A DNA stretch of 39,788 nucleotides. Source: a virus. The stretch's first letter is position 1, and every line of letters starts with the position of its first letter. The notes under the pieces are model-generated. The model saw only the letters and a program-made list of their open reading frames with translations, was not told where the DNA came from and did no database searches. The translations under genes and the position numbers were made by a program. Location of the stretch: positions 1 through 39,788 of the IMG/VR virus record IMGVR_UViG_3300005288_000022. One strand, given 5' to 3'. Positions 7,601-18,384 of the stretch are shown piece by piece.

Positions 7601-7676
7601 TGGACTGAAGCATTGACGGTTGATGCTCTCGGCTCATAACCGAGGGAAGCGAGTTCAAGTCTCGACAGTCCAACCA
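7601..7676 (+). tRNA. tRNA with CAT anticodon (Met or lysidine-type Ile)
   Basis: 76 nt with an encoded CCA. The acceptor TGGACTG/CAGTCCA is perfect (7601-7607, 7666-7672). D arm GCAT...ATGC, anticodon stem CTCGG/CCGAG with loop CTCATAA, T arm GCGAG-TTCAAGT-CTCGA with one mismatch, discriminator A. The sequence alone does not decide between Met and Ile2. Confidence 0.85.
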
Positions 7677-10144: not shown

Positions 10145-10440
10145 TCGGCTCATCCCTCGACTCATCATCGCAGCTCACGCAATCAGCGGGGATTGCTGTT
10201 GGCTCTGTGGAGCAAGCAGTTGCTACGCTCGGCATTCGACTTGAGCAACTCGGCGCTCAGATCGTCGATCTCGAATCCTCCATCTACCAGATTCTCAGGC
10301 AAGACAATGAAGGCGGCGCAAAGGGAACTTGCAAACCAACACCTTCTACGCCGTTAGCCGCTCGCCTTGAAGAGCTCGTCAGTGGGATTGATAACCTGAC
10401 AAACAGGGTCGAATCGATTCGCAGCCGAGTGGATATCTGA
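10141..10440 (+). CDS. Coiled-coil protein, 99 aa
   Basis: Two helical heptad-like blocks (V-E-Q-A-V-A-T-L-G-I-R-L-E-Q-L-G-A-Q and L-A-A-R-L-E-E-L-V-S-G-I-D-N-L-T) are joined by a polar linker with one Cys. It starts on the previous stop and abuts the next gene directly. Function unknown; it could assist the neighbouring membrane proteins. Confidence 0.6.
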   Translation: MIGSSLDSSSQLTQSAGIAVGSVEQAVATLGIRLEQLGAQIVDLESSIYQILRQDNEGGAKGTCKPTPSTPLAARLEELVSGIDNLTNRVESIRSRVDI

Positions 10441-10791
10441 ATGAACGCAATCCTGATTCACTTCATTGGCTTCGCCCTGCTCGGCAAGCTGATCCCTAGC
10501 TGGGTCGGTGAGTTTGAATCAGGATTCTCCTGTGTCTGGTACGCATCCTTCGCGCTGATCGACGTCATCGCGCTGGCCTGCACCACCAGCCCATGGATAA
10601 AATGCGTTCTGGCCATCTCCTGCGCCTGGTCGGTAACGCTCGCCGTCGAGACGATCCTTCTGCAAGACCTGCTCCAATCGCATGACTACATCGCGCAATG
10701 GATCATCGACGGGGCGCTGCTGGCGTGTGCGATTGGTCTCGGTGTCGTCTGGCTGAATAGGCGCACCAAGCATAAGGAGACTGCGCAATGA
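10441..10791 (+). CDS. Multi-span membrane protein, 116 aa
   Basis: Four hydrophobic segments: I-L-I-H-F-I-G-F-A-L-L-G, Y-A-S-F-A-L-I-D-V-I-A-L-A, C-V-L-A-I-S-C-A-W-S-V-T-L-A and A-L-L-A-C-A-I-G-L-G-V-V-W-L, with a charged N-R-R-T-K-H-K tail. It begins one base after the previous stop. Probably inner-membrane and possibly lysis-related by position. Family not recognised. Confidence 0.6.
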   Translation: MNAILIHFIGFALLGKLIPSWVGEFESGFSCVWYASFALIDVIALACTTSPWIKCVLAISCAWSVTLAVETILLQDLLQSHDYIAQWIIDGALLACAIGLGVVWLNRRTKHKETAQ

Positions 10792-11222
10792 CAACTATTG
10801 CATACAGGGACGGTGTGATCGCCTATGACTCGCGCCAAACCCGAGGAGATCGAATCGTTTCTGACAACTCGCCGAAATGCCAAGTTGTTAATGGGGTGAG
10901 CTTCCTCTTGTCGGGCGTCGTATGTGATGAGAATGCATTGATATCGGCCTACTTCGGCACTCCTTCCCCGGTGCCGGTGGAGTGTTCTGGATTTGTCGTT
11001 GATGGCTACAGGCTTATGATGGTTGGTCATGACGACAAGACGGGGATCTGGAAGATGGATCTTGACCTAGCCAACCCAGATGCAATCGGCAGTGGCGCCC
11101 CTTACGCCCTCGCTGCAATGGATATGGGCGCAAGCGCGGAAGATGCGGTGCGCATGGCGATGAAACGGGACATCTACACTGGCGGCATAGTCCGGTCTAT
11201 CAATCTTATGGAGGGCAAGTAA
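10788..11222 (+). CDS. HslV-like Ntn hydrolase (proteasome beta-fold peptidase)
   Basis: 144 aa. Starts M-T-T-I-A-Y-R-D-G-V-I-A-Y-D-S-R: after Met removal Thr is the N-terminal nucleophile, as in HslV (T-T-I-V). Asp14 and Lys30 lie where HslV has Asp17 and Lys33. F-L-L-S-G, A-I-G-S-G-A-P-Y-A (99-107) and R-D-I-Y-T-G-G (127-133) align with HslV G-S-G-G-P-Y-A and D-I-C-I-Y-T. About 30 residues shorter than HslV, with no HslU partner nearby. It lies just before TerS. A head-maturation or host-directed protease role is inference. Confidence 0.82.
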   Translation: MTTIAYRDGVIAYDSRQTRGDRIVSDNSPKCQVVNGVSFLLSGVVCDENALISAYFGTPSPVPVECSGFVVDGYRLMMVGHDDKTGIWKMDLDLANPDAIGSGAPYALAAMDMGASAEDAVRMAMKRDIYTGGIVRSINLMEGK

Positions 11223-11629
11223 TGGCCGCCGGCAGACCAAAGGATGAAGTAATTGACCGGCTCAAAGAGGGCTGGCAAACGCGCTTCATTGAGATGGGCA
11301 AGGAAGGCTGCTCAGACGTTGAGATCCGCGCTGAGTTCGGTATAAGCCAAGATCTTTGGTGGCGCTGGATCGAAGAAGACGAAGAGTTTTCCACAACCGC
11401 AAAAGAAGCCAAGGCCGCTTGCCATGCCAAATGGGAGCAGATGGGCCGCAAGATGGCGTTCGGCGAAGTCGAGGGAAACCCGACAACATGGATCTTCAAC
11501 ATGAAGAACCGGTTCAACTGGCGTGACAAGCAGGATGTTGAACATAGCGGCCAAGTCGATATGAGCGCGAAGTCTGATGCGGAACTGAAAGCCCGCGCTG
11601 CCAAGTTGCTTGCGAAAGTCGAGAACTGA
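11222..11629 (+). CDS. terS: Terminase small subunit
   Basis: 135 aa directly upstream of TerL, starting on the last base of the previous stop. An N-terminal HTH-like segment (S-D-V-E-I-R-A-E-F-G-I-S-Q-D-L-W-W-R-W-I) is followed by helices suited to oligomer formation and N-M-K-N-R-F-N-W-R-D-K-Q, a motif common in small terminases. It would recognise the pac site and stimulate TerL for headful packaging. A pac site was not identified. Confidence 0.85.
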   Translation: MAAGRPKDEVIDRLKEGWQTRFIEMGKEGCSDVEIRAEFGISQDLWWRWIEEDEEFSTTAKEAKAACHAKWEQMGRKMAFGEVEGNPTTWIFNMKNRFNWRDKQDVEHSGQVDMSAKSDAELKARAAKLLAKVEN

Positions 11630-11631
11630 TC

Positions 11632-13317
11632 ATGCGGCCGGCATTGTCTTTGTCCGAGCGTGATGAGCTGGACATGATCCTGGCCGAACTGGAGCGCCGC
11701 CAAGGCACGTCTACGGTGATCGGCATCGTTCACCCTGTAGATGGCCACACTCACTCAGTCGTGCGGCGCAATGGCGAATGGCGCACTACAGACGAAGAGC
11801 CTACCGCGTACTTGCCCTTCAAGCTTGAAGCCGTCCTGAAGTCGAAGAAGCGCTTCATCATCGTCATAGGTGGTCGCGGCTCTGGCAAGTCAGTAGGCGT
11901 CGCTGACATCTGCCTGATCGATGCGAAAGAAGATGGCGTCAAAACCTACTGCCTTCGCGAATACCAGACCAGCATCAAGAACTCTATCTTCTCGCTGCTC
12001 AAGGACGAGATCAGCCGGCTTGAGTTCGACGGCTTCGAAGTCCAGTCGAACGGCATCAAATACGGCGAAGAGGATGCCTTCCAGTTTGCCGGCCTATCGC
12101 ACAACGTTGACAGCATCAAGTCTGCGCACGGTTTCCGCCGTTTCGAGATCGAAGAAGCGCAGTTCATCAGTGACGATTCGCTCACGGCGCTGACGCCAAC
12201 CGCACGGAAGAAGCCCAAGAAGGGCATGCCGACGGTGATGGAAGAGGTGCAAGAGGCAGACGGATTGGCGAACGTCTCGATGGTCTTCATCGCCAACCCA
12301 TCCAGCAGCGAGGCGCCATTCAGCAAGCGCTTCATCAATCCGTTCAAGGAGCATCTCGACAAGCACGGCTTCTATGAAGATGACCTGCACCTGATCGTCG
12401 TCATGAACTACACCGACAATCCTTGGTTCCAAGACTCCGGCCTTGAAGAAGAGCGGCTATGGGACTTCAACTACAGGTCGCGCGCAATGTATGACCACAT
12501 CTGGCTCGGCGCCTTCAACGACTCGGTGGAGAACGCTCTGATCATGTCCGAATGGTTCGATGCTTGCGTGGATGCGCATAAAAAGCTGGGCTTTGTTGCG
12601 TCTGGCGCACGAATCGCCGCGCATGATCCATCGGATACCGGGCCGGACAGCAAGGGTTTCGCTGCGCGTCACGGCTCAGTCATCGAAATGGTCAAGGAGA
12701 TGGAGACTGGCACCGTCAACGAGGGCGGTCACTGGGCGGCAGGCGAGGCGATCCAGTTCCAGTCTGATGCATTCGCATGGGATGGCGACGGCATGGGCAT
12801 TGCGCTGACCGAACAGATGGGCGCCGACTTCCAGGGCAAGCAGACGGTTCTGTCCGTATTCCGTGGTAGTGAGTCGCCAGACTTCCCCGATGCTGTCTAT
12901 CGATCGGCTATCGCATTTGTTCCAGCCGAGAACAGTAACGCACCGGTGGCCAACCAGAAGACCAACAGCGATTCGTTCCGCAACAAGCGGGCCCAGTATT
13001 ACTTCGAGCTACGCGACCGCTGCTATCGCACGTACAGGGCCGTAGTGCATGGCGAATACCATGACCCGGCCAAGATGATAAGCTTCGATTCATCAATCGA
13101 ACTTCTGTCCAAGCTTCGCGCTGAACTCTGCCGCATGCCGGTCAAGCCCAATGGCAACGGCCTGTTCGAGCTTTACACGAAGGCTGAGATGAAGTCCAAA
13201 TTCAAAATGGCCAGCCCGAACTTGGCGGATTCCGTAATGATGCTGATGCGTTACGTGCCGCAAGCAAGGGTTCAACCTAAGATTCCGCGTCCAGTGCGGC
13301 CGATGGGAAGGAAATAA
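11632..13317 (+). CDS. terL: Terminase large subunit
   Basis: 561 aa; P22 gp2 is about 499. ATPase: Walker A G-G-R-G-S-G-K-S at 80-87 and Walker B F-E-I-E-E-A-Q around 171-177. Nuclease acidic residues: H-D-P-S-D (Asp332), W-D-G-D-G (384-386) and a late A-D-S-V-M near 537. Powers DNA translocation and makes the headful cut. The first about 70 residues, before the ATPase, form an extra segment. The start shares TAATG-type coupling with its neighbours. Confidence 0.95.
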   Translation: MRPALSLSERDELDMILAELERRQGTSTVIGIVHPVDGHTHSVVRRNGEWRTTDEEPTAYLPFKLEAVLKSKKRFIIVIGGRGSGKSVGVADICLIDAKEDGVKTYCLREYQTSIKNSIFSLLKDEISRLEFDGFEVQSNGIKYGEEDAFQFAGLSHNVDSIKSAHGFRRFEIEEAQFISDDSLTALTPTARKKPKKGMPTVMEEVQEADGLANVSMVFIANPSSSEAPFSKRFINPFKEHLDKHGFYEDDLHLIVVMNYTDNPWFQDSGLEEERLWDFNYRSRAMYDHIWLGAFNDSVENALIMSEWFDACVDAHKKLGFVASGARIAAHDPSDTGPDSKGFAARHGSVIEMVKEMETGTVNEGGHWAAGEAIQFQSDAFAWDGDGMGIALTEQMGADFQGKQTVLSVFRGSESPDFPDAVYRSAIAFVPAENSNAPVANQKTNSDSFRNKRAQYYFELRDRCYRTYRAVVHGEYHDPAKMISFDSSIELLSKLRAELCRMPVKPNGNGLFELYTKAEMKSKFKMASPNLADSVMMLMRYVPQARVQPKIPRPVRPMGRK

Positions 13318-16081: not shown

Positions 16082-17092
16082 ATGGACCAAACCCTGGAAG
16101 AATTGCGGGCGGCAAACGCAGCAGAAGAGGCGGCAGCAGCACAGGTTCCGCAAACCGGCGCGACTGACACCACGAATGATGCAGCCGATGACCTGAACAC
16201 CGACGACGATCATGCGGATGATCAAGACGATGAAGAAGGCCAGCAGGCAGAACCCGAAAGCTGGATGAAGGGCGACGACCAGGAGTCGCAGAGTGCTGAG
16301 AAGAAGTTCACGGATAGCGATATCGGCGCGGCGAAAGCCAAAGTCCGGGCAAAGCTTGATGTGGCGAAGTCAGAGATCGAGCAACTGCGTGCGCAACTGG
16401 AAGAAGCGCGCCGAAACACCGTAGCGCCGCAACCCTCGGCACGGCCGAAGCGTGAGGACTTCTACGACCAAGACGACCCGGACGATGCGTTTGCTGAAGC
16501 CCTGACGGATTGGAAGTTGAACGATCGACTCGCAAAGCAGCACAACGAGTCGCAGCAATACGAGTTTCAGCGCAAGCAACTGGAAACGCAGCAGACCATT
16601 GAATCTGGCGTGAATCAGCATTACGAGCGAGCAGCAACATTGGCGACGGCAAGCGGGATCAGTCCTGAGCTGTACCAGTCGGCAGATCATCGCGTTCGCA
16701 GCGCCGTTGAAGGGACTTTCCCCGGTGGTGGCGAGCAGGTCACGAACGCGCTGATTGCGGCTATCGGCGAAGGTTCTGAAAAGGTGTTCTACAACCTCGG
16801 GGTTAGCCCGAAACGCCTTGCAGAACTGACAGCGAAGCTTGCGTCAGACCCAAGCGGACTGACTGCTGTTGCTTATTTGGGCAGCTTAAAAGCCGAGTTG
16901 ACTGCTCCACTCAGAAAGAAAAGCAATACACCGGCCCCGGCCACGACTGTGCAAGGTGACGCGAACACCACCGACATTGGGAAGAACCTGCAAAAGCGAT
17001 ACGCAGAAGCCCATAAGCGCGGTGACACGCAAGCCGCCTTCGATATCCGTCGTGAAGCCAAGGGCAAAAACATAAACGTCAAATCTTGGTAA
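16082..17092 (+). CDS. Scaffolding protein (P22 gp8-like)
   Basis: 336 aa against 303 in P22. A very acidic N-terminal third (runs of D and E, about 35-70), a long Gln/Glu/Arg coiled coil (about 85-185), and a short basic C-terminus (L-Q-K-R-Y-A-E-A-H-K-R-G and K-G-K-N-I-N-V-K) of the kind that binds coat in P22. Directly precedes the coat gene. Assists procapsid assembly and leaves before packaging. Confidence 0.85.
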   Translation: MDQTLEELRAANAAEEAAAAQVPQTGATDTTNDAADDLNTDDDHADDQDDEEGQQAEPESWMKGDDQESQSAEKKFTDSDIGAAKAKVRAKLDVAKSEIEQLRAQLEEARRNTVAPQPSARPKREDFYDQDDPDDAFAEALTDWKLNDRLAKQHNESQQYEFQRKQLETQQTIESGVNQHYERAATLATASGISPELYQSADHRVRSAVEGTFPGGGEQVTNALIAAIGEGSEKVFYNLGVSPKRLAELTAKLASDPSGLTAVAYLGSLKAELTAPLRKKSNTPAPATTVQGDANTTDIGKNLQKRYAEAHKRGDTQAAFDIRREAKGKNINVKSW

Positions 17093-17103
17093 GGAATTAA
17101 ACG

Positions 17104-18384
17104 ATGGCAGCTTTAACCGCAGGCAAGATTGCCGAGGTCATGTTTGAAAACGCGCTCGATACCTATGAGCCGCAGGACATGCTCCTTCCGACCACCACGT
17201 TCTACGAGCCAGACGGCGCGACGATGCAGAACTCCGGGAACACCATCTGGCGTCCTGTTCAGCAGCATCGTCCAGTGATCAGCGGGTTCGACCTGACTGG
17301 TTTGGAAACCGGCATCATCGAAGAAACCTATCCAGCGGTGCTGGGTACTCCAACCAACGATCTGGTTAGCCAGCGCGCTGACGACATGCGCGACCTGCGT
17401 TTCTGGGAGAAGGCTGGTACTGAAGCTGGCCGCCAACAAGCGACCAACTTGAACAAGGCGATTGCTACGGCCATCGGCCTGCAAGGTGCGATGTTCTATC
17501 GCTCCAACGCAACCAGCGGCTATGACGTGATCGGCGAAGCTCAGGCGCTCATGAACGAACGTCAAGGCGCCAAGTCCGAACGTTTCTTCCTGCTGAATGA
17601 CCGCGACAACCTGAAGTTCGGCAAAGACCTTGCCGCTCGTCAGACCCTGCAAGGCCGTCCTGCTGATACCTGGGCAACCGGCCAGATCGGTCAGAACGTC
17701 GCCGAGTTCGACATCTACACCGCTTCGTTCCTGCCGAACCTTGTCGGTGGTGCTGACCCGGCCACCACTGTGACCGCTAACCAGTCGTTCAAGCCAACTG
17801 CAGGCACTGTCGATCCAGTGCTGAACACCGTGACCAACGTGGACTACCGTACTGCGACCATCCCGGTTACAGCCTCGGCGTCCTACAACATCGGCGACAA
17901 GATCACCTTTGCCAACGCCGCGGTGACCGTCAAGGCGCTGGGCTTGGCCGACAAGTCGGATACTGGCGTGGCGATGACCTTCACTATCGTGGGCAAGCCA
18001 TCCGGCACGTCGATCACGATCTTCCCGAAACCGATTGCCCTGGACGACCCGGCGCTCTCCACCCTGGAAGCGGCTTACGCCAACGTGAACACTCGCATCC
18101 TCAACACCGCAACCGTGAACCGGGTGAACATCGACGCTTCGAAGAAGGTCAATCTGTTCTACGACAAGGACGCGGTTGAAGTGCTGGGCGGCTCCATCCC
18201 GGCGGATCTGTTCAAGTCGTACGATGGTCTGAAGGTCATCAACAAGACCATGAAAAATGGCCTGAAGATGTACATGATCTACGACGCCAACATGATCAAC
18301 CTGCAATTCCGCTATCGTCTGTTCACTTGGTGGGGCGTCACCATCAAGGATCCGTCGCGCTGCGGCACAGCTGTTACCTTCTGA
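17104..18384 (+). CDS. Major capsid (coat) protein, P22 gp5-like
   Basis: 426 aa against 430 in P22 coat. Shared blocks recalled from P22: S-G-N-T-I-W-R-P-V-Q-Q, Q-R-A-D-D-M-R-D-L-R, N-Q-S-F-K-P-T-A-G (start of the inserted I-domain), F-P-K-P-I-A-L-D-D-P-A-L-S, A-Y-A-N-V-N-T-R-I. AAGG upstream of the ATG and a terminator 17 bp after the stop. HK97-fold shell subunit. Confidence 0.95.
   Translation: MAALTAGKIAEVMFENALDTYEPQDMLLPTTTFYEPDGATMQNSGNTIWRPVQQHRPVISGFDLTGLETGIIEETYPAVLGTPTNDLVSQRADDMRDLRFWEKAGTEAGRQQATNLNKAIATAIGLQGAMFYRSNATSGYDVIGEAQALMNERQGAKSERFFLLNDRDNLKFGKDLAARQTLQGRPADTWATGQIGQNVAEFDIYTASFLPNLVGGADPATTVTANQSFKPTAGTVDPVLNTVTNVDYRTATIPVTASASYNIGDKITFANAAVTVKALGLADKSDTGVAMTFTIVGKPSGTSITIFPKPIALDDPALSTLEAAYANVNTRILNTATVNRVNIDASKKVNLFYDKDAVEVLGGSIPADLFKSYDGLKVINKTMKNGLKMYMIYDANMINLQFRYRLFTWWGVTIKDPSRCGTAVTF

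Follow-up and report, generated by a model that had tools for sequence, protein, structure and literature searches.

A proteasome-like gene of the PPH family as a swappable cassette beside the terminase genes of a P22-type phage genome

The gene and its surroundings

The DNA analyzed here (the window) is the full 39,788-nucleotide stretch of the virus record IMGVR_UViG_3300005288_000022 from IMG/VR. An initial annotation, made from the sequence alone, had singled out a short gene in front of the packaging genes as an HslV-like protease. That gene, its borders, and the genes used as anchor or context are as follows.

10441 to 10791, plus strand: gene for a small membrane-type protein, bounding the accessory slot on the left (homologs in relatives)
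10788 to 11222, plus strand: PPH gene, encoding a predicted 144-amino-acid proteasome-like N-terminal-threonine peptidase (open reading frame, ribosome-binding site, phrog_1040, AlphaFold2, Foldseek, dN/dS)
11222 to 11629, plus strand: terminase small subunit gene (TerS), right border of the slot (phrog_309, E=3.3e-21)
11632 to 13317, plus strand: terminase large subunit gene (TerL), anchor of the presence/absence test (phrog_2 / phrog_3717)
16082 to 18384, plus strand: scaffold (phrog_648) and P22-type coat (PF11651, E=1.9e-63), which the initial annotation had proposed as substrates or context

The PPH reading frame starts with an ATG preceded by an AAGGAG ribosome site, and it is tightly packed, its start overlapping the stop of the upstream gene (ATGA at 10788) and its end overlapping the start of TerS (11222); its placement just before TerS was thus correctly described. 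No terminator-like site was found on the plus strand between 8000 and 12000, and this, together with the overlapping genes, suggests that PPH is probably cotranscribed with the late operon. Homologs of the membrane-type gene on the left adjoin TerS or other genes in four relatives (L248, L255, L256, and L257). A tRNA-Met (CAT) gene lies at 7601 to 7676, upstream of the lysis cassette.

The open reading frame is real, and its similarity to other proteins goes far beyond chance. It matches PHROG 1040 (“peptidase HslV family”) directly over residues 1 to 142 (E=1.7e-37), although the Pfam Proteasome model PF00227 taken alone gives 15.7 bits, below its 22.4-bit cutoff. A tblastn search with the window protein returned relatives in 281 phage records (E<=1e-3). 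Against its closest homologs, the gene shows a dN/dS of 0.075 to 0.108; a ratio of about 0.1 indicates strong purifying selection and, hence, a working gene.

Fold, active site, and family

An AlphaFold2 model built with 54 homologs reached a pLDDT of 93.4 and a pTM of 0.87. In the PDB, Foldseek ranked HslV from the HslUV complex first (1g3i; E=1.6e-7, probability 1.00, TMq 0.72); further HslV structures, BPH (5ovs; E=3.2e-7), and 20S beta subunits came next. Besides its strands, the model contains helices at residues 45 to 55, 104 to 112, and 117 to 127 and none between 56 and 103, so that H1, H3, and H4 of HslV and the proteasome are present while helix H2 has no counterpart. A profile made from 18 diverse proteins of phages matched PSMB8 (E=9e-14) and Thermotoga maritima HslV (5e-12) with the catalytic residues aligned in register. 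Model and profile together assign the protein a predicted proteasome/HslV (Ntn hydrolase) fold.

We then counted residue conservation in the 139 unique PPH-family proteins from the fetched loci, with the following result.

10791 to 10793, plus strand: Thr2, predicted mature Thr1 nucleophile once Met is removed; M-T-T in 137/137 N-terminally complete unique homologs, whose starts were partly picked by an [MVL]TT pattern (pattern-free proteins, an independent check, aligned alike)
10827 to 10829, plus strand: Asp14, equivalent to proteasome Asp17 (136/137 unique homologs; aligned to PSMB8 Asp17)
10875 to 10877, plus strand: Lys30, equivalent to proteasome Lys33 (138/138)
10914 to 10916, plus strand: Gly43, equivalent to oxyanion-hole Gly47 (138/138)
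11088 to 11108, plus strand: G-S-G-A-P-Y-A block, residues 101 to 107 (Gly101 139/139; Ser102, equivalent to Ser129, 135/139; Gly103 138/139)
11169 to 11186, plus strand: Asp128 (equivalent to Asp166) to Gly133 (equivalent to Gly170), both 139/139

All residues named in the initial annotation (Met1-Thr2-Thr3, Asp14, Lys30, and Gly101-Ser102-Gly103-Ala-Pro-Tyr-Ala) are therefore in place and align to proteasome Thr1, Thr2, Asp17, Lys33, and the GSG at 128 to 130; Gly43 and the Asp128-xx-Thr-Gly-Gly motif, which it did not mention, are conserved as well. No substitution occurs in the 139 proteins at the equivalents of Thr1, Thr2, Lys33, Gly47, Gly128, Asp166, and Gly170, wherever these positions are covered. 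Judging from this complete catalytic set, the protein is very probably an active enzyme. It carries no propeptide, the ATG directly preceding ACA-ACT. The rules of Met removal are established, and with such a start, the host methionine aminopeptidase would be expected to expose Thr1, which would make a propeptide unneeded.

A family with these features, named PPH, was described in 2021 by Fuchs, Alva, and Lupas (PMC8665760) as comprising proteins of about 140 residues from tailed phages and their hosts, which belong to group I together with HslV and BPH, keep the catalytic set, and lack both helix H2 and a propeptide. The window protein agrees with every feature of this definition that can be compared (144 amino acids, with most unique homologs at 136 to 163; group I; no H2; no propeptide; the Thr/Asp/Lys/Gly set; occurrence in a virus record, with relatives in 281 phage records), and nothing sets it apart from the published family (KEGG OC.1434257). 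We accordingly class it as a PPH member, an assignment made by the described features rather than by the published cluster. A proteasome-fold enzyme in a phage is thus not unexpected, contrary to what had been supposed, the family having already been described in phages; likewise, phage HslV genes without HslU had been noted in 2020 for the Salmonella jumbo phage pSal-SNUABM-04 (PMC7823757).

The label “HslV-like” holds for the fold and for the probable threonine protease activity, but PPH is not an HslV in the strict sense. The window protein is about 30 residues shorter, as had been stated (144 versus 171 to 175 amino acids for most HslV chains compared), and the missing part comprises helix H2 with about 20 to 27 residues around it, relative to HslV and 20S. 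In a search of the HslV equivalog models (TIGR03692; cutoff, 157.75 bits), it had no HslV match at E<=10, and the KPP10 homolog scored 16.6 bits. HslV (ClpQ) thus shares fold and active site with PPH but differs in having H2, in matching the equivalog models, and in having HslU as its partner. BPH, a group I relative with no known unfoldase, is larger (PDB chains of about 185 amino acids) and features H1-H2 and a double heptameric ring. Connectase, a monomeric proteasome homolog without H1/H2 that works independently of an unfoldase (PMC8665760), is proteasome-like as well; in contrast to it, PPH keeps H1 (residues 45 to 55) and has no S3/S4 insertion. PHROG 1040 also includes proteasome homologs of greater length than PPH, among them the versions found in T5-like phages.

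A one-gene cassette between lysis genes and terS

When the 8- to 16-kb region of the window was compared by blastn with 15 PPH loci of unrelated siphophages, all DNA similarity fell within a single interval.

10786 to 11194, plus strand: DNA cassette common to the window and the unrelated siphophages (all similarity within 10783 to 11194)

Since the similarity stops at the ends of the PPH gene, PPH moves as a one-gene cassette, and it does so between phages with quite different heads. In annotated phages, PPH sites include nin/replication regions, lysis cassettes, an island surrounded by tail genes, tRNA-adjacent positions, RNA/NAD-metabolism genes, and places upstream of the terminase; in the Pseudomonas temperate phages sampled, the usual site is shortly before the packaging block, with the holin region on the other side. 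PPH is thus a swappable accessory cassette, here in a slot that has the lysis genes on one side and terS on the other. The authors of the family reported no functional clue and no informative genomic context (PMC8665760), and the evidence for a swappable one-gene cassette without a tie to head type is what our analysis adds to the published description.

In 51 siphophage loci, a gene of about 207 amino acids, which PHROGs labels a transposase (phrog_513) and Pfam a putative phage metallopeptidase (PF18894), lies between PPH and TerS and was considered as a partner protease. It occurs in 47/47 PPH-less and 12/12 PPH-bearing loci of that terminase lineage alike, so it is unlinked to PPH. A single prophage region of Pseudomonas sp. 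RIT623 carries two copies of PPH, separated by about 7 kb (L173, 9899 to 10426 and 17229 to 17675), as also seen in L159/L237. The PPH matches in P. alliivorans (L191) and P. marginalis (L195) start at residues 54 and 23, respectively, and are apparently decaying copies in bacterial genomes. In locus L139, the product of 10416 to 11048 falls under phrog_513 (“transposase”), whereas Pfam assigns it to the metallopeptidase family PF18894 (E=4e-41), and its sequence contains a His-Glu-x-x-x-His motif; the PHROG 513 label is likely a mislabel.

Head maturation and other candidate roles

The initial annotation had suggested that the enzyme might act on the scaffold or on the ejection proteins of a P22-type head. 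We therefore followed PPH among relatives anchored on the window TerL and on two siphophage TerL proteins, counting those loci whose sequence extends 3 kb or more upstream of TerL. PPH was present in 2/31, 12/59, and 13/60 loci of the three TerL lineages, respectively, the first being that of the window (TerL identity, 36 to 87%); because each query contributed its 80 best-matching loci, many of them fragments, percentages derived from these samples are approximate. Both carriers in the window's lineage have the gene 4.7 to 5.2 kb upstream, not adjoining TerS. A search of whole records found the PPH family in 5 of 50 TerL sisters. The nearest sister, L248, resembles the window closely (identities of 89% for TerS, 87% for TerL, 89% for portal, 76% for scaffold, and 83% for coat), yet its 38,981-base record holds no PPH, other small genes occupying the slot; in L256, the slot is empty, and the stop of the membrane gene overlaps the TerS start. 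While absence from virus records could reflect incomplete assemblies, the slot is fully covered in both L248 and L256.

Viewed from the carriers, just two (L164 and AH02) of the 50 PPH phage records include a P22-type coat. AH02 carries the same head module; its PPH occupies a different slot, 33.9 kb into a 39.1-kb record starting at TerS. Large phages carry PPH far from their head genes. SPN3US has a PPH 94.7% identical to the SPFM19 copy, and its 14 mapped head cleavage sites have been attributed to gp245 (PMC10052503). In PAK_P3, PPH is gp143 (L487), which the record note assigns to the nucleoside kinase superfamily, a label that misfits the PPH sequence; from outside the structural region, gp72, gp160, and gp166 are the sole proteins mentioned in the text of the virion proteomics paper (PMC4309531), which, coming from the text and not from the full protein list, is weak evidence.

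These relatives show that PPH is not required for P22-type head maturation. A protease for the head, the scaffold, or the ejection proteins would fit the position beside TerS, and in Pseudomonas prophages PPH usually precedes the terminase directly or at a distance of one gene. Moreover, no S78- or ClpP-type head protease was found in any of the 50 PPH phage records, which together with the proximity to packaging genes leaves room for a facultative assembly role. We nevertheless regard a head, scaffold, or ejection-protein role as highly improbable, given that relatives with the same head persist without the gene and that its place varies. We also rejected the idea that PPH replaces S78/ClpP head proteases: PPH is also missing from most sister phages that share the head and the terminase lineage, so that head type is the likelier explanation (S78/ClpP having been searched for in PPH phages only). 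S78, ClpP-like, and SPN3US gp245 proteases are phage encoded as PPH is, but they belong to different families, and PPH is missing from close relatives with the same head module.

In our preferred reading, to which we give a probability of roughly 0.6, PPH would be an accessory N-terminal-threonine peptidase that acts independently of HslU on proteins of the infected cell and is unneeded for P22-type head maturation. Most likely it would work without HslU as a peptidase, either as a monomer or as a ring, which the loss of the H2 region suggests. By elimination, its targets could be unfolded or specifically recognized proteins of the host, of a resident prophage, or of a superinfecting phage. 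More tentatively, it is conceivable that PPH is an unfoldase-independent peptidase or ligase directed against host or competing-phage proteins (in takeover, counterdefense, or superinfection control) and spread as a one-gene cassette between unrelated phages. No match to PPH was found among known defense proteins (PADLOC), and in the literature on PPHs we found no reported activity, oligomer state, or substrate for any member.

Other functions for the same fold can be weighed against this reading. A specific processing enzyme or a protein ligase (transpeptidase) would be in keeping with the small size, the accessory nature, and the missing unfoldase; it would be akin to connectase, which dispenses with H1/H2 as PPH dispenses with H2; but PPH retains H1, lacks the helical S3/S4 insertion that gives connectase its specificity, and has no known recognition motif, leaving such a modifier doubtful. 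PPH might instead bind host HslU in the place of HslV and so change the course of ATP-dependent proteolysis, action through host HslU having been envisaged in the initial annotation. The shared fold would permit this, and HslU is encoded in 22/22 PPH-carrying host genomes searched. Against it stand the missing H2 region and the divergence from the HslV equivalog models, as well as the fact that no AAA+ partner cooccurs: the window encodes no HslU-type AAA+ (AAA_2) domain, as had been noted, the 50 PPH phage records contain no AAA_2 unfoldase, and Fuchs et al. found no AAA+ partner either (PMC8665760). Without the H2 region, docking is unlikely despite the availability of host HslU. An AAA/kinase gene that overlaps PPH from upstream in Roseobacter phage DSS3P8 was also considered as an ATPase partner and rejected, the upstream neighbors elsewhere being unrelated. 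Many phage accessory genes inhibit host machines, and a homologous fold could allow PPH to act as a decoy, entering the assembly of host HslV or of another self-compartmentalizing protease and poisoning it. A decoy, however, needs no catalysis, and the essential invariance of Thr1, Asp17, Lys33, Gly47, Ser129, and Asp166 in the 139 proteins makes this very unlikely.

The question of PPH is thereby narrowed to a gene under selection, very probably active as judged by its residues, and outside the head machinery. Its carriers include laboratory-friendly groups (KPP10/PAK_P3-type P. aeruginosa phages, Jerseyvirus, and SPN3US), and close phage relatives that have or lack the gene can serve as natural controls, which makes the role of a viral proteasome homolog experimentally tractable. 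If action on host or competing-phage proteins proved true, no proteasome-type enzyme before PPH would have had a role assigned to it in phage biology.

Some related genes deserve separate mention. Aeromonas phage 4L372D (MK813939) encodes two different proteasome-family proteins in tandem (L093, 3432 to 3983 and 4001 to 4885). The first, of 183 amino acids (phrog_1040, E=9.6e-26), is related to the version of T5-like phages, has GCG in place of GSG, and gave no significant hhalign match to the PPH profile; the second, directly downstream, is a PPH with a C-terminal extension. Both proteins were also found in the related phages 2L372X, 2L372D, and 4L372XY, and the pair possibly forms a two-subunit assembly. 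A P22-type relative with 57% TerL identity (L267, 3189 to 3854) has, in place of PPH and 4.7 kb upstream of TerL, a 221-amino-acid proteasome-like protein (phrog_1040, E=8e-20). Within the window itself, the product of 24078 to 25436 matches phrog_917 and phrog_2534 (“released from the phage upon host infection”) and is a candidate ejection protein.
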